From the IMG/VR virus record IMGVR_UViG_3300028025_003040, positions 1 to 58,778 of that record: a DNA stretch of 58,778 nt; one strand, written 5' to 3'. Source of the DNA: a virus. The notes under the pieces were generated by a model, which was not told where the DNA came from, did not search any database, and saw nothing but the letters and a program-made list of their open reading frames with translations. The translations under genes and the position numbers were made by a program. How positions within the stretch are numbered: position 1 is the stretch's first letter; every line of letters begins with the position of its first letter. This document shows positions 4,170 through 27,079 of this stretch, one piece after another.

Positions 4170-4316
4170 ATGCTAGAAATCGGACAGACCTTCACAACAA
4201 CACAGACAGGTATCACAGGTATTATCAAAGCCGTTGATAATCACCCAAGCGGTGTAAATCGTGTGCTACTAGATGTCAATGGCACAGAACGCTGGACAAG
4301 CGTATCTGCTGAATAA
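4170..4316 (+). CDS. small beta-rich hypothetical protein
   Basis: 48 residues (MLEIGQTFTTTQTGITGIIKAVDN...), with strands alternating around Gly turns, like a small SH3/KOW-like barrel; that is only a shape impression. The start is set by AACGAAAGGAAACAAATG; the earlier GTG lies in the promoter. A pseudoknot RNA follows the stop. Confidence 0.65.
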   Translation: MLEIGQTFTTTQTGITGIIKAVDNHPSGVNRVLLDVNGTERWTSVSAE

Positions 4317-4331
4317 TTCCTAATCGGGAAA

Positions 4332-4360
4332 TGTCCTGAGCATGACAACTAAAACTGCTC
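4332..4360 (+). ncRNA. H-type RNA pseudoknot, copy 1 (leader of the 4389 gene)
   Basis: Stem 1 TGTC (4332-4335) pairs with GACA (4344-4347). L1 is CT. Stem 2 GAGCA (4338-4342) pairs with TGCTC (4356-4360). Loop 3 ends in AAAAC. It has the same layout and invariant parts as copies at 6332-6359 and on the minus strand at 26486-26512, while stem 1 differs in sequence in each. It lies 14 nt before the AACGAAAGG ribosome site. Confidence 0.7.
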
Positions 4361-4388: not shown

Positions 4389-4805
4389 ATGTCAAGACAA
4401 ATCACAGTAAAGGTAGCAACAGCAAAAGTAATCAAGGCACTAGAGGCTCGTCTAGCAACGCTAGAAAAAGATTACTCATCACAAGAAGCAAACGAAGCCA
4501 AGTATCAAAAAGCCCGTGAAAAGTGGCAGAAAGAAATTGGTAAATGGGCTATTGAGAACTTCTCAAAGGCTGAAAATATCAGAACAAATTATCGTCAATG
4601 GAACAACACTCTTAATGTTGATTTTGACATCATCACAAAGGAAAGCAATTTCCCTACTGAACCTGAAAAAGACTACGAGCAAATCCATCAGCACACTTAT
4701 CGTGAGATGAAAGAGGACATCACAAATGCCCTAACAATTCTCAAAATGACAGATGAGGAAACAGTAAATGCTTCCACAATGAAGCAGATTGCTAAGTATC
4801 TCTAA
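4389..4805 (+). CDS. coiled-coil hypothetical protein
   Basis: 138 residues. The N-terminal half is strongly charged and helical (about residues 10-55, KVIKALEARLATLEKDYSSQ onward), likely a coiled coil. The second half contains NTLNVDFDIIT and a C-terminal helix. The start follows CAACGAAAGGAATACC. It is transcribed behind pseudoknot copy 1 and closed by a terminator. Function unknown. Confidence 0.7.
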   Translation: MSRQITVKVATAKVIKALEARLATLEKDYSSQEANEAKYQKAREKWQKEIGKWAIENFSKAENIRTNYRQWNNTLNVDFDIITKESNFPTEPEKDYEQIHQHTYREMKEDITNALTILKMTDEETVNASTMKQIAKYL

Positions 4806-5320: not shown

Positions 5321-6325
5321 ATGGCTCACAATCTCGAAACCGAAAACGGCGAAGTTGCATTTGCTCTTCGTGGCGCACCTGCTTGGCATAACCTTGCCAA
5401 TCGTATCTTCAATCAAGATGAAGAAGTTACAACACAAACAATGCTTGATGAAGCAAAACTATCCAACTGGAATGTTCGCTTATCTCCATTGACCGACCAC
5501 ATTTCAGAATCTTGGAATGATGTATCAAATGCATCTCTTGTCATTCGTGACAACCCATTCAATAAGGGAATCGATGTTCTTGCAACTGTTGGCAAACGTT
5601 ACAAGCCTGTGCAGAATGAAGAACTATTTGCATTCGCTGATGCAATTCACGATGCCAATGCTGATTGCCGTTGGGAATCTGCGGGTTCTCTTAAGAAAGG
5701 CAAAGTTGTATTTGGTACTGTAGATATTCCTCGCACAATGGTTCTTGACCCACAAGGCGCCAATGACCAAACAAAGTTATATCTAATCGTATGGACATCA
5801 CACGATGGTTCTGTTGCCGTTCAAGCAGCGGTTACACCTGTTCGTGTTGTATGTCAAAACACGCTAAACCTTGCAATGAAGAATGCTAAGCAATCTTTCA
5901 AGATTCGCCACACGCAATCTGTTGAAGGTCGCATTCAAGTTGCTCGTGAAACTCTTGGGCTTGCTCTTGGTTATTTCGATGAATTCGAAGTTCAAGCAAA
6001 GGCTCTTTATTCACAAGCAATTACCGATGCTGAATTCTCTAAGTTAATTCAGACAATCTATCCTAAGCCTGAAAAAGATGCTAAGGGTGCATTGAAGAAG
6101 TGGGAAAATAAAGTTGTTCTAATTGACGACCTTTATCATAACTCACCAACCAATGCGACAATCAAGGGAACAAAGTGGGGTGCATTCAATGCACTAACTG
6201 AGCGCCTTGATTACTACCGCTCTGGTCGTGGTAATTCAGAATCCCTAATGGCGGGTGCAAGTGGTTTTGACCCAATCTTAACCGCAGAAAAAAATAAGTT
6301 GTATCGAATGGTTGCAACTTTCTAA
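5321..6325 (+). CDS. DUF932 / phage-plasmid-like protein (TIGR03299 type)
   Basis: 334 residues, the largest gene of this arm. Features typical of DUF932 proteins are the start MAHNLETENGEVAFALRGA, PAWHNLA, TVGKRYKPVQNEELF (about residue 90) and PVRVVCQNTLNLAM (about residue 178). This family is frequent on phages and plasmids; its biochemical role is unresolved to my knowledge. Length fits the family. The start is supported by the CGAAAGG site. Pseudoknot copy 2 and tRNA-Asp lie directly downstream, probably in the same transcript. Confidence 0.88.
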   Translation: MAHNLETENGEVAFALRGAPAWHNLANRIFNQDEEVTTQTMLDEAKLSNWNVRLSPLTDHISESWNDVSNASLVIRDNPFNKGIDVLATVGKRYKPVQNEELFAFADAIHDANADCRWESAGSLKKGKVVFGTVDIPRTMVLDPQGANDQTKLYLIVWTSHDGSVAVQAAVTPVRVVCQNTLNLAMKNAKQSFKIRHTQSVEGRIQVARETLGLALGYFDEFEVQAKALYSQAITDAEFSKLIQTIYPKPEKDAKGALKKWENKVVLIDDLYHNSPTNATIKGTKWGAFNALTERLDYYRSGRGNSESLMAGASGFDPILTAEKNKLYRMVATF

Positions 6326-6331
6326 ATAATA

Positions 6332-6359
6332 AAATCCTGAGCAAGATTTAAAACTGCTC
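6332..6359 (+). ncRNA. H-type RNA pseudoknot, copy 2
   Basis: Stem 1 AAATC (6332-6336) pairs with GATTT (6345-6349). L1 is CT, stem 2 GAGCA (6339-6343) pairs with TGCTC (6355-6359), and loop 3 is AAAAC. It sits between the DUF932 stop and tRNA-Asp, 7 nt before the tRNA 5' end, so it may affect processing of that transcript rather than translation of a following gene. Confidence 0.7.
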
Positions 6360-6366
6360 ACCATTT

Positions 6367-6443
6367 GGTCCATTAGCTCAGTTGGTTAGAGCGCTACCCT
6401 GTCACGGTAGAGGTCGACGGTTCAAGTCCGTTATGGATCGCCA
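6367..6443 (+). tRNA. tRNA-Asp (GTC)
   Basis: Full cloverleaf: acceptor GGTCCAT with ATGGATC, D arm TAGCTCAGTTGGTTAGAGC, anticodon stem CTACC/GGTAG with loop CTGTCAC (anticodon GTC), T-loop TTCAAGT, discriminator G and an encoded CCA. It is the only tRNA on the plus strand. Confidence 0.95.
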
Positions 6444-23231: not shown

Positions 23232-23414
23232 TTACTCTGATTCTTTATTTCTAGCAGGGCTTGTAATTATCCAAAGGGCCGTTGTTGCTATAATTCCATA
23301 GCCTACTATAGTTTTTGCGCTTCCGTCCAAAACGACCCAAGCAATAAACATGCCAAGAAGGGTCCAGGCCTGATCAATTAGATCCTTGATTATATTTTTA
23401 AGTATTCTTACCAT
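23232..23414 (-). CDS. second small membrane protein (holin-like)
   Basis: 60 residues with two hydrophobic helices (AWTLLGMFIAWVVLDG and TIVGYGIIATTALWIITS) separated by a short turn, basic N-terminus and charged C-terminus, a typical small holin or antiholin layout. It lies one gene away from the putative holin, so the pair may set lysis timing. Confidence 0.65.
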   Translation of the reverse strand: MVRILKNIIKDLIDQAWTLLGMFIAWVVLDGSAKTIVGYGIIATTALWIITSPARNKESE

Positions 23415-25807
23415 TTTCTACCTCCTCGTGAACCTGGTGAATTGGCTCCTGAGCCTCCACCAGAACTTCCTCCTCCGCCTGTGCCACTTCCTGTGGCTCC
23501 TCCTGCGGCAACTGCTGCTGCGTTAATTGCAGCGCCTCCTGCAATTACTGTAGCAACAACCATATCTGTTGCTTCTTCTCTTTCTGCATCTGACATATCT
23601 GCACCTATGCTTCCAAATGCAGCCAATGCTGCTGCTGGATCATTAAATAATTCTTCTACAAGTGCTGATGGGTTCTGTAATAATTCTACCTGTGCCGCAA
23701 CTTCAGCAGTAATTACAACTGCATTTCCATTTTCATCCGTTCTAACATCTACTGGTGTTGATGCTGGTAGATCTTTATATTCAATCCCAGATGCTTTTAT
23801 ATCTGCAGAACTTAATGCTTCTCCTGGCTTTAAATCTTCAATAAGACTTTCAACTACCGCATCTTTTTGTTCTTCAGTTAATTCTTTACCATCTTCTATT
23901 GCTTTTTCAAGGGCCTCTGCTTCTGCTTCTTTTGCTTCTGCCTCCGCCTTTAGTTTATCTGCCTCTGCTTGTTTAGCTTTTGCTTCTGCTTTAGCGTTTT
24001 CTTCTTCTTGTGCTTTATCTTCCGCTTCTGCCCTTGCTTGCTCTTCTGCTTGTCTTGCAGCTTCTGCTTCTGCTTCTAATCTTTCTGCTTCCGCTTCTAA
24101 TCTTTCTGTTTCCGCTTTTGCTGCAGCCTCTTCTGCTGCGACACGATCTGCTTCTGCTTTAGCTGCTGCTTCCTCAGCAGCAACTCTATCTGCTTCTGCT
24201 TTTGCTGCAGCCTCTGCAGCTGCTTTAGCTTCTGCTTCCGCTTTTGCCGCTGCTTCAGCGGCTGCCTTTGCCTGTGCTTCTGCTTGAGCCGCTGCAGCTT
24301 CCGCTGCCGCAGCTTCTTGTGCTGCTTGTTGTGCCGCTGCTTCCGCAGCTGCTTGAGCCGATGCCTGTACTGCTGCTCTCTGCTCTGCATAATAATTTGT
24401 AGTAACCTGTGCAGCATTTGTCATTGCTGTTACTGCTTCATTTACTTTTGTAGTTGCTGTATTTGCAAGGGAGTCTGCTGTTTGAACTGCAACTGTTAGG
24501 TTTTCATTAGCAGTTGTGAGGTTTTGTTGCTGAGTTGTTAGGTTTGTCTGAGCGGTTGTTAGGTTTGTTTCTGCAACTGTTTTTTCTGCCACAAGTGTTG
24601 TTAACACGGCAACTTCTGCCACCTTAATTTCTGTTTTATCAGCGACTACTGCTGTTTGACTTTCTATTTGAGCAGTTAATTCTGTATTAGTTACATTTGT
24701 CATTGCTTGCACTGGCTGCCCAGAAGTTTCACGTACACCAATACGAGGTCCGTTATATAAGTTAGTTGTATTTCCAGCAACTGTACCAACGCCTGTCCAT
24801 TCTCCAGTTGTAGGGTTTACGGTCATAGTCCAGTTAACATTTGTAATTGAACTGCCTGGATTACCAAATAAGTGTAAATCCCAATCAACAGCAAGAGTTG
24901 TTTCTGTGGTTGTTACTGTAATTCCAGCGTTAGGTCCTGCACTTTGGAAGTCAGAACCAAAGACTGAGATACTTGGTCCGTTAGGGAAATCCCACCAATT
25001 ATAGTCTCCAATACCAAAAGTAATAGTTGCTTTAGAGGTTACATAAATTTGACTATTATTTCCTTGTCCTTCATAAACCGTGTCTCCCATTTTAATATCA
25101 AATGGTGTGCTGATCTTTGTTGCAGCATCATACATAGGAGGCAAAACTGTAGTAGTAACGGTTGGCGTGTCTACTGGTTCTGGTGCTACATATCCCTCAG
25201 TAGTGTATGTCTTGCTGTCTGATGGTGTGTTCTGAAGCTCTGTTAATGTGGTCTGAGCATTAGTAAGATTAGTAGTGGCAGTTGCTACTACGGCAGTTTG
25301 GCTTTCTACTGCTGCGGTTGCGGTAGTAACAGTAGCGGTGGCTGATTCAACGACTGTTGTTGCTGTTGCTACTATTGCTGTTTGAGATTCAACTGCTACC
25401 TGAGCTGTTTGTGCAACTGTTACTGCTGTCTCAGCAGATTGAATTGCTGTTGTGGCTTCTTGTACCTTTACTGTAGCCTCTGCTACCGCAGTAGCAATTG
25501 GTTCTTGTGTGGTAGCAATTGTAGCTGCTTGCGTTGTTGTTGTGTTAGGAACATTAGTTTGAATTGTAGTAGTTATAGCAGTTGCTTGTTCTTCTGCTGC
25601 CGCCTGCAATGTCTCCGCTGCCGCTTCAACCTTATCTGCAACTGTCTCAACTGTAATAGGAGTGGTTGCTGTGGCAGTGTCTGAAGAAGGATTAACTGGA
25701 GTTACTTGAACTGTTGGCTCATCAGCATTTGCTATGCTAGGCCCAAAAAGGAAAAGCCAGCCGATTATAAAAAGGCTGGTTAAAAAGTATTGAAACTTTC
25801 TAGTCAA
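23408..25807 (-). CDS. large secreted Ala-rich coiled-coil protein (TTG start)
   Basis: 799 residues. TTG start at 25807 with GGAG 7 nt upstream. The signal peptide runs to about residue 28 (ending SIANA-D). Regions: Thr/Ala/Val coiled part (30-190); a folded part (about 220-350, with YNWWDFPNGPSISVFGSDFQ and LHLFGNPGSSITNVNWTMTV); a second coiled part; an Ala/Glu repeat (about 500-650, units like KAEADRVAAEEAA, TolA-like); and a C-terminal part ending in a Gly/Ser tail. It probably spans the cell wall or forms a fibrous surface layer. Its role in infection is unknown. Confidence 0.75.
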   Translation of the reverse strand: MTRKFQYFLTSLFIIGWLFLFGPSIANADEPTVQVTPVNPSSDTATATTPITVETVADKVEAAAETLQAAAEEQATAITTTIQTNVPNTTTTQAATIATTQEPIATAVAEATVKVQEATTAIQSAETAVTVAQTAQVAVESQTAIVATATTVVESATATVTTATAAVESQTAVVATATTNLTNAQTTLTELQNTPSDSKTYTTEGYVAPEPVDTPTVTTTVLPPMYDAATKISTPFDIKMGDTVYEGQGNNSQIYVTSKATITFGIGDYNWWDFPNGPSISVFGSDFQSAGPNAGITVTTTETTLAVDWDLHLFGNPGSSITNVNWTMTVNPTTGEWTGVGTVAGNTTNLYNGPRIGVRETSGQPVQAMTNVTNTELTAQIESQTAVVADKTEIKVAEVAVLTTLVAEKTVAETNLTTAQTNLTTQQQNLTTANENLTVAVQTADSLANTATTKVNEAVTAMTNAAQVTTNYYAEQRAAVQASAQAAAEAAAQQAAQEAAAAEAAAAQAEAQAKAAAEAAAKAEAEAKAAAEAAAKAEADRVAAEEAAAKAEADRVAAEEAAAKAETERLEAEAERLEAEAEAARQAEEQARAEAEDKAQEEENAKAEAKAKQAEADKLKAEAEAKEAEAEALEKAIEDGKELTEEQKDAVVESLIEDLKPGEALSSADIKASGIEYKDLPASTPVDVRTDENGNAVVITAEVAAQVELLQNPSALVEELFNDPAAALAAFGSIGADMSDAEREEATDMVVATVIAGGAAINAAAVAAGGATGSGTGGGGSSGGGSGANSPGSRGGRKW

Positions 25808-25873: not shown

Positions 25874-26059
25874 CTACTTGGGATTATCTGTTTTATAAAA
25901 GCCACTACCATTGAACTGAATTCCAAATGATCCATAGTGTCTTACAAGATTAGCGTTACATTTTTGACAACCATATGTTGGCTCATCATCTGTGATGCTT
26001 CTTTCAAATTGTACGACATCCTCTGGAGAGCATTCACACTTGTACTCGTATATTGGCAT
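25874..26059 (-). CDS. FmdB-type zinc-ribbon protein
   Basis: 61 residues starting MPIYEYKCECSPEDVVQFER, with CQKC further on and GFYKTDNPK at the end, the typical FmdB-family putative regulatory zinc ribbon (PIYEY...C...C...CxxC). The family's exact role is unknown. It is coupled to the SNase gene by a one-base overlap. Confidence 0.85.
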   Translation of the reverse strand: MPIYEYKCECSPEDVVQFERSITDDEPTYGCQKCNANLVRHYGSFGIQFNGSGFYKTDNPK

Positions 26060-26466
26060 TACTTACCGCTCTTTTTTCTCTTTTCAGCTAAGGCAACGAA
26101 GTCTTTGACCTTAGTTTCTCCCATGTATCCCCACGCATAACCATCTTCAATCATTTGTTCATTAACAGACTTATTGTTTCCGTCAATATAAACCCAACCT
26201 AAAATACGACCATACTTTTCAGAACTATCTGGTTTTTCTGTTTTTACAACAATTTCTTTAGCATCTTTAAATTTAGATTTTAGATACTCTTTTGACTCTA
26301 AGCCTAATGTCTTTTCAAGTTTGTCTGTTGTTCTTGACTCTGGTGTGTCAATTCCTGCCAACCTAAGTCTTTGAGAATATGAAATGCTGAATCCAAGATC
26401 AATGTCAACATCAATAGTATCTCCGTCCACTATCTTTGTTACTTGCTTAACTCTGTATTCAAACAT
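26059..26466 (-). CDS. secreted-type staphylococcal nuclease homologue (SNase), no signal seen
   Basis: 135 residues from the ATG at 26466 (AAGGAG site). SNase motifs: IVDGDTIDVDIDLG, then RLRLAGIDTPESR with Arg35, Asp40 and Glu43, and KYGRILGWVY carrying the second Arg. These calcium-dependent enzymes degrade DNA and RNA. Without a signal peptide it would act in the cell, perhaps on host DNA. Its leader is a structured RNA with pseudoknot copy 3, so expression is probably RNA-controlled. Confidence 0.88.
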   Translation of the reverse strand: MFEYRVKQVTKIVDGDTIDVDIDLGFSISYSQRLRLAGIDTPESRTTDKLEKTLGLESKEYLKSKFKDAKEIVVKTEKPDSSEKYGRILGWVYIDGNNKSVNEQMIEDGYAWGYMGETKVKDFVALAEKRKKSGK

Positions 26467-26485
26467 AATTCTCCTTAAATTTAAA

Positions 26486-26566
26486 GAGCAGTTTTGGGAC
26501 GTGCTCAGGTCCATCCTTCGGGTAGCGACCCGAATAGTCTGCGACTCCCCAGTGACGGGGTGCAGA
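26486..26566 (-). ncRNA. structured 5' leader of the SNase gene with pseudoknot copy 3
   Basis: After TATAAT (26577-26572) the RNA should begin at the first stem. Minus-strand order: TCTGC/GCAGA enclosing CCCC/GGGG (26566-26538), hairpin TTCGGGT/ACCCGAA (26534-26517), and the pseudoknot GGAC/GTCC (26512-26509 with 26500-26497), CT, GAGCA/TGCTC (26506-26502 with 26490-26486), loop CAAAAC. About 20 nt then reach the start codon. It looks like a riboswitch or regulatory leader. Confidence 0.72.
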
Positions 26567-26571
26567 TTTCT

Positions 26572-26577
26572 ATTATA
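26572..26577 (-). promoter_or_regulatory. -10 hexamer of the SNase leader
   Basis: TATAAT in AGTATAATAG on the minus strand, just downstream of the Hsp20 stop. The structured leader begins about six bases later. Confidence 0.6.
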
Positions 26578-26581
26578 CTAT

Positions 26582-26998
26582 TTATTTGATCTTGATGGGC
26601 TTGGGCTTTTTTTCTTCAGGCACTATACGATCTACATTGATATGCAGCATGCCATCCTTTAACTCAGCACCAGTAACTTCCATGTATTCTCCAAGGGCAA
26701 AAGATCTTGTAAATTTTCTGCTTGCGATACCTTTGTGAACAACTTCTGCATCTGTTACCTCAACAATTTCTCCTTTAATTATAAGACTGCCATTGTCTAC
26801 AGACAACTCAATATCATTTTTTGAGAATCCAGCGACAGCAATCGATAACCTAAATGTGTCTTCATCTAATTTGAGAAGATCATAAGGTGGATATGATTGT
26901 GAGTTTAGTTTGTGTGCATGATTTAAACGACTTAGCTCCCTATTGAAGCCAATGAAAAAAGGATCATTAAAAAGATCCATAGCAAATTGTGTTACCAT
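26582..26998 (-). CDS. hsp20: Hsp20/alpha-crystallin small heat-shock protein
   Basis: 138 residues. N-terminal arm (FNDPFFIGFNRELSRLNHAH), then an alpha-crystallin domain with PPYDLLKLDEDTFRLSIAVA, GFSKNDIELSVDNGSLIIKG, the ASRKFTRSFALG strand and the AELKDGMLHINVDRIVPEE ending. Length fits bacterial Hsp20. It holds unfolding proteins. Strong AAAGGAGG site. Expression passes through a 5' hairpin leader. Small heat-shock genes are known in marine and freshwater phages. Confidence 0.9.
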   Translation of the reverse strand: MVTQFAMDLFNDPFFIGFNRELSRLNHAHKLNSQSYPPYDLLKLDEDTFRLSIAVAGFSKNDIELSVDNGSLIIKGEIVEVTDAEVVHKGIASRKFTRSFALGEYMEVTGAELKDGMLHINVDRIVPEEKKPKPIKIK

Positions 26999-27027
26999 TT
27001 TATTCCTCCTTTAAGCGAATAAGTTAA

Positions 27028-27066
27028 TATACGGGCCTCCTATTGGACGACCCGTATACTATTATA
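27028..27066 (-). promoter_or_regulatory. extended -10 promoter and hairpin leader of hsp20
   Basis: Minus strand: TGATATAAT (-10 at 27066-27061), then TATACGGG/CCCGTATA hairpin (27058-27028) with a 15-nt loop that contains AATAGGAGG, itself ribosome-site-like. The true site AAAGGAGG lies farther downstream and stays free. Confidence 0.6.
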
Positions 27067-27079
27067 TCAAATATTTTAT

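Follow-up and report, generated by a model that had tools for sequence, protein, structure and literature searches.

The SNase gene of the window has a leader of two hairpins and a pseudoknot

The window analysed here is a stretch of viral DNA of 58,778 nucleotides (IMG/VR record IMGVR_UViG_3300028025_003040), in which a gene for an SNase-like thermonuclease is flanked by an HSP20 gene and a small zinc-ribbon gene. Reading of the sequence places the SNase leader on the minus strand, as is the gene itself, with the following features.

26582..26998, minus strand: HSP20 gene, upstream neighbour of the SNase gene (Pfam PF00011, E 2e-17)
26572..26577, minus strand: TATAAT, the -10 box of the leader promoter, with no clear -35 box (sequence)
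26538..26566, minus strand: hairpin 1, outer stem TCTGC/GCAGA and inner stem CCCC/GGGG (fold, conservation)
26517..26534, minus strand: hairpin 2, TTCGGGT-CGCT-ACCCGAA (fold; stem variants in relatives)
26486..26512, minus strand: H-type pseudoknot GGAC-CT-GAGCA-C-GTCC-CAAAAC-TGCTC (covariation of S1 and S2), made up of stem S1 26512-26509/26500-26497, loop L1 CT, stem S2 26506-26502/26490-26486, linker C26501 and loop L3 CAAAAC
26471..26475, minus strand: AGGAG, Shine-Dalgarno sequence of the SNase gene (sequence)
26059..26466, minus strand: SNase-like thermonuclease gene, 135 aa, ATG at 26466, stop at 26059 (Pfam PF00565, E 2e-17; PHROG 452, endonuclease)

The TAA of the HSP20 gene (26584-26582) ends 4 nt ahead of TATAAT. 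Hairpin 1, which reads TCTGC-A-CCCC-GTCACT-GGGG-AGTC-GCAGA from 26566 to 26538, is expected to lie at the 5' end of the transcript or to adjoin it. The three paired elements of the original prediction are thus all present, and the gap between the pseudoknot and the ATG is 19 nt. The nested fold of 26570-26464, in which the pseudoknot is uncounted, reached -33.6 kcal/mol versus -24.9 +/- 3.2 kcal/mol for shuffled sequences (z -2.7; 2/200). It had also been claimed that this leader is far more structured than the others in the window, which overstates the case a little: its rank among the 44 window leaders is high (5th by z, 3rd by energy), but it is exceeded by the HSP20 leader and also outranked by the leader of ORF 4389, which holds another copy of the pseudoknot. 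The HSP20 leader (27000-27075, minus strand) is the most structured of all 44 (z -6.4); it has a strong hairpin, ATACGGG...CCCGTAT, behind a box similar to TATAAT, and is possibly a regulatory leader or a thermometer.

The window virus has a terminase that shares 61-63% identity with the terminases of large Streptomyces phages, e.g. Francob, and this kinship makes an actinobacterial host likely. At 23408-25807 (minus strand), near a CHAP-domain protein, lies a gene for a protein of 799 aa, rich in Ala, Thr and Glu and with long repetitive stretches, perhaps a structural or lysis protein.

The leader is conserved among SNase relatives and is portable

A search for the leader ahead of SNase genes of other phages, proposed originally as a check, found it in about half of 80 fetched SNase relatives, while BLAST with the leader alone as query returned nothing useful. 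The TATAAT box, hairpin 1 and the pseudoknot are retained in 34 SNase loci with 25 distinct leader sequences. When we scanned for hairpin 1, TATAAT lay at most 14 nt upstream of it in 94/94 distinct contexts, and the pseudoknot was present in 88/94. The gene downstream of this cassette was an SNase in about 79/86 cases and some other gene in the remainder, which indicates that the promoter-leader cassette is portable. Hairpin 2 is more freely exchanged, being swapped in relatives for TGCGGGC/CCCGCA, TGGGC/GCCCA, TTTGAGC/GCTCAAA or an extra pseudoknot-like module. Five SNase leaders (L001, L003, L013, L018, L032) carry GTCGGGGGAGACAGCGAC...AACTG, a module which may be a further small pseudoknot, in place of hairpin 2 or together with it. 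In two further relatives (L048, L049) the pseudoknot follows the HSP20 stop almost directly, without promoter or hairpins.

This conservation is strong evidence that the leader is real. A role at the level of RNA, as had been suggested, agrees with the fact that TATAAT, hairpin 1, a hairpin in the second position and the pseudoknot are kept while the stem sequences change with compensation. The other half of that suggestion, that the leader controls a nuclease toxic if made too early, is not supported: the leader is missing from many IMG/VR homologues of SNase, and the promoter-hairpin cassette stands ahead of non-nuclease genes in about 7 cases.

Both stems of the pseudoknot covary

The pseudoknot is of the H type, with two interleaved helices and covariation behind both of them, seen across hundreds of phages. 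Its consensus order is S1, CU, GRGCA, N, S1', n-AAAC, UGCYC, and its parts occur most commonly in the lengths 4-2-5-1-4-6-5 (in the order stem 1, loop 1, stem 2, linker, stem 1', loop 3, stem 2'); the window copy has exactly this layout. Stem 2 was assessed with stem 1 fixed, by pair-by-pair scans for sequences without the usual pair, and replacements were Watson-Crick in 75/102 cases for pair 1, 98/99 for pair 2, 55/55 for pair 3 and 74/81 for pair 4; pair 5 (A-U) hardly changes, and the 3 cases found are all compensated. Stem 1 was assessed in a set with no selection for pairing, where pairs 2-4 were paired in 140, 138 and 117 of 148 sequences versus 66.5, 65.6 and 61.0 expected. The copy of Staphylococcus phage 37, for instance, has the compensated form AAGTA/TGCTT. 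The loops, the last pair of S2 and AAAC are nearly invariant across phyla, an invariance of the fixed letters that is partly built in, as the scans began from fixed motifs.

A general descriptor found at least 694 distinct copies in 6.13 Mb of fetched loci versus 11 in reversed sequence; because these loci were gathered using the motif, this is not a genome-wide rate. A control with the reversed pattern gave 0 matches in every genome searched. Among the matches listed from an IMG/VR scan with CCTGAGYAN{4,14}AAACTGCTC, most have a complementary stem 1. All counts from motif scans given here are lower bounds. The window itself has 3 copies versus 0.04 expected, the other two of which, identified by pattern and descriptor, are the following.

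4332..4360, plus strand: second copy, between a small ORF that stops near 4315 and ORF 4389-4805
6332..6359, plus strand: third copy, 6 nt past the TAA of ORF 5321-6325 and 7 nt before tRNA-Asp (6367-6440)

ORF 5321-6325 (plus strand) belongs to a cluster of DUF932, a family of unknown function.

Phages and prophages across many bacterial phyla carry the pseudoknot

With a strict pattern, at least 81 contig stretches were matched in 84,980 species genomes, where we estimate that chance would give about 1. They came from Lactobacillales, Clostridia, Bacteroidota, Patescibacteria, Alphaproteobacteria, Chloroflexota, Cyanobacteria and others. In Lactobacillales, at least 8 of 295 genomes had the pseudoknot and the reversed control gave 0. 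Named carriers include the Lactobacillus phages KC5a, Lj771 and phig1e, the Staphylococcus phages 37, phiETA, 29, 55, 88 and 92, Anoxybacillus phage A403, Roseobacter phage SIO1, Arthrobacter phage Amigo, crAss-like phages and a Cylindrospermopsis virus. At least 166 INPHARED records hold a copy, mostly (as read from their titles) from phages of Staphylococcus, Lactobacillus, Arthrobacter, cyanobacteria and Rhodobacterales, host groups which we take to possess RNase J. Gammaproteobacteria were represented among the INPHARED groups shown only by Moraxella and one Pasteurella record, and none was among the named titles of the matching genomes; this depletion is thus based on phage records and genome titles.

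Comparison with known RNA families

Rfam 15, applied at gathering score to the window and to 18 loci with copies, found only tRNAs; the pseudoknot family is absent from it, and we found no published description in the open-licence literature. The nearest known family is GP20-b (RF03003), a phage cis-element upstream of GP20 scaffold genes, which is similar in the type of leader it forms in Firmicute phages: layout and context are alike, the sequence is not. In one locus (L374:4314-4482) two copies of our pseudoknot and then a true GP20-b (50.3 bits) stand in tandem in a single leader before a phage gene start, and the first half of that GP20-b reads as a pseudoknot with the same 4-2-5-1-4-6-5 layout. 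The GP20-b model had no match to the window leader at E<=10 and gave 20.5 bits for the KC5a copy, below the gathering cut-off of 36.2. As only the neighbouring element in L374 passed this cut-off, we do not file the pseudoknot as GP20-b. GP20-b, moreover, has two knots and belongs to scaffold leaders, whereas the element described here has one knot and is not limited to such leaders: the copies of Staphylococcus, Lactobacillus, Anoxybacillus and D6E phages do lie upstream of a GP20 scaffold gene, but those of the window do not. GP20-a had no match in the whole-library Rfam scans. In scaffold leaders of Staphylococcus and Lactobacillus phages (L404:1500-1600, L402:1500-1580) we noted a second pseudoknot-like fold behind the pseudoknot, e.g. 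CGTG-G-CGTT-G-CACG-TAAAA-AACG.

Other systems share single traits with the pseudoknot. Short H-type frameshift pseudoknots of the luteovirus type (e.g. BWYV P1-P2) have a 2-nt loop 1 and an A-rich loop 3; they are alike in fold, but the phage pseudoknot sits after stops and has no recoding signature. The 5' mRNA stabilisers of Gram-positive phages (e.g. SP82) are leader elements thought to protect downstream mRNA. That of SP82 is made of an RNase III site and a polypurine stretch, not of this pseudoknot. The xrRNAs of flaviviruses and plant viruses are compact, pseudoknotted viral RNAs, sometimes in tandem, for which a mechanical block is proposed, and one xrRNA is known to halt RNase J1 (PMC5760640); the likeness lies in compactness and in the predicted block, not in any demonstrated homology of sequence or topology. 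The STAXI motif (RF01728), like the element studied here, is a pseudoknot that occurs in several copies near mobile-element genes (PMC2864571). It differs in consisting of two or three tandem repeats and in being found in Enterobacteriales near DNA-binding genes, and its model had no Rfam match to the window or to loci with copies.

The pseudoknot follows stop codons and often precedes tRNA genes

Stem 1 most commonly begins 5-7 nt behind a stop codon, and 256/609 copies lie 2-14 nt after a stop, a proximity that could partly be due to the compactness of phage genomes. In a first set, 115/307 copies lay 3-12 nt after a stop, versus 8/159 on the opposite strand and about 20/663 for random positions. 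UGA is avoided as the upstream stop (8 observed versus 27.9 expected, n=112). A tRNA gene follows within 60 nt in 43 cases, in 41 of them at 3-13 nt and often at 4-8 nt, while a tRNA lies upstream in 7 cases. The tRNA cases, which include the window copy at 6332, have upstream proteins from 15 unrelated clusters, and their tRNAs are of many types.

The neighbouring genes are diverse. Upstream of the pseudoknot, DUF932 is the commonest (16/111), and HSP20 (8/111), major head and SSB genes are also found; downstream genes include DUF932, scaffold and SNase. In Firmicute phages the pseudoknot stands directly before the scaffold and capsid genes and the upstream gene varies. The pseudoknot is therefore not nuclease-specific: in hundreds of phages it stands beside capsid, scaffold, SSB, HSP20, RNR, DUF932 and tRNA genes, which speaks against an element meant to control a toxic nuclease. 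Genes of the same strand flank most copies on both sides. Gene pairs that truly converge (3' end only) or diverge (5' leader only) around a copy were few, by crude gene calls which in metagenomic loci are simple open reading frames. A strong promoter behind the pseudoknot was not enriched (11/304 versus 8/304 at random). In the Cellulosimicrobium phage DS1, the pseudoknot is preceded, at a distance of about 340 nt, by a Pistol ribozyme (L411:796-865, 66 bits).

The pseudoknot may be an exoribonuclease roadblock at cistron boundaries

The fixed spacing from stops, the tRNA genes behind, the genes for abundant proteins ahead and a fold whose shape is conserved although its neighbours are not are together suggestive of a physical barrier at an mRNA end. 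We thus propose, with about even confidence, that the pseudoknot is a compact roadblock to exoribonucleases at cistron boundaries, which would chiefly protect the upstream message at its 3' end, or act on both sides. The data show that the pseudoknot exists, how it folds (from covariation), how far it has spread and where it stands with respect to stops and tRNAs; its function as a roadblock, the direction of that function and the enzymes named below are inferred. A precedent is given by compact viral RNA folds which mechanically halt even bacterial RNase J1 (PMC5760640).

In this model, the pseudoknot would fold once transcribed, and a site about 6 nt past the stop is presumably the nearest that a terminating ribosome should permit without unwinding it. 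A cut just downstream might be made by RNase P where a tRNA follows, and by RNase E, Y or III elsewhere. The pseudoknot would then stand at the new 3' end of the upstream mRNA and could confer resistance to 3'-to-5' decay; beside tRNAs, cutting by RNase P would otherwise be likely to leave a naked mRNA 3' end. Because a cut by RNase P would leave the pseudoknot 3-13 nt from this new end, protection of the 3' end is favoured. Avoidance of UGA would make sense if readthrough is not to be induced by a tight block.

The same fold could also stop 5'-to-3' decay by RNase J coming from the upstream gene, so that the downstream gene would be spared. That 5'-to-3' decay is blocked as well is suggested by the capsid leaders and by the SNase cassette, in which the pseudoknot lies behind a promoter; this is probably what it serves for in Firmicute phages ahead of the capsid operon and, in part, ahead of SNase. 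On one hand, the Firmicute capsid leaders point downstream; on the other hand, the tRNA cases point upstream, and this disagreement weighs against the proposal. As most copies lie between genes of the same strand, protection of the upstream 3' end, of the downstream 5' end or of both would fit. In the window, where the pseudoknot stands behind the promoter and two 5' hairpins, the SNase mRNA would begin with a hairpin, and transcripts reading through from HSP20 would gain a knot between the two genes.

From the shared transcripts of their late operons, phages make proteins in widely differing amounts, and little is known, beyond a few model phages, of how phage mRNA survives in hosts with both 5'-3' and 3'-5' exonucleases. 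A pseudoknot of 27 nt at a fixed place after stops and before tRNAs, occurring both in well-studied Staphylococcus and Lactobacillus phages and in uncultured ones, is open to experiment. If it is a roadblock, it would be a very short and portable mRNA stabiliser. Somewhat less confidently, we suggest that it could be a phage-wide RNA stability element which blocks exoribonucleases at cistron ends, including those beside tRNAs, and a counterpart of the xrRNAs; bacterial viruses would then have such an element punctuating their polycistronic mRNA.

Other explanations account for less of the evidence

The strongest competitor is a block to decay in the 5'-to-3' direction only, i.e. a phage counterpart of viral xrRNAs that would stop RNase J and preserve the downstream cistron (capsid operon or SNase). 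It would explain why the pseudoknot in unrelated Firmicute phages is always directly ahead of scaffold or major capsid genes while the upstream gene changes, and why the SNase cassette keeps it with the downstream gene, behind a promoter; the preponderance of RNase J hosts and the scarcity of gammaproteobacteria also agree with it, but host groups were read from titles and come without an expected share. As the position is correlated most closely with the upstream stop, and as 41 copies lie 3-13 nt ahead of a tRNA, where a 5' block protects nothing (7 lie after one), we regard the one-directional form as rather unlikely.

Less likely again, the pseudoknot may be a binding site for a conserved protein (a host RNase, a ribosomal or a phage protein) and thus a processing or regulatory signal. 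The strong conservation of CU, GRGCA and AAAC could equally reflect a bound protein, and behind several Firmicute copies there is AU-rich sequence with ATGC at its end, similar to the preference of S. aureus RNase Y for a cut 3' of G within AU-rich RNA (PMC4608709). The same near-invariance of the loops, the last S2 pair and AAAC is, however, to be expected if a short H-type pseudoknot forms base triples, and no shared gene accompanies the pseudoknot.

We consider it improbable that the leader is a translational or timing switch of SNase in which the 3' strand of stem 2, TGCTC, pairs alternatively with the Shine-Dalgarno sequence. The window sequence CTCTTTAAATTTAAGGAG can form such a hairpin, with AGGAG pairing weakly with the last CTC of the pseudoknot, and most SNase leaders permit at least 3 pairs; but the CTC/GAG pairing follows automatically from two fixed sequences, the remainder is poorly conserved and mismatched in about half of the leaders, and copies at other genes occur without it. 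That the pseudoknot replaces the hairpin of a transcription terminator is less likely still: 4-7 T follow some Firmicute copies, but most copies have no T-run, and the pseudoknot stands ahead of capsid genes and tRNAs, which must be transcribed. Least probable of all is a recoding signal for stop readthrough or frameshifting, since the 5-7 nt spacing from the stop is that of known recoding pseudoknots but the in-frame extension is no longer than in the other frames (median 8.5 codons versus 5 and 8), UGA, a leaky stop, is avoided, and tRNAs directly follow some copies.

Two further candidates were rejected. A riboswitch does not agree with the many unrelated neighbour genes and with several copies per phage, and a DNA-level element is disfavoured by the coding-strand position after stops and by the compensatory changes, both of which favour RNA.
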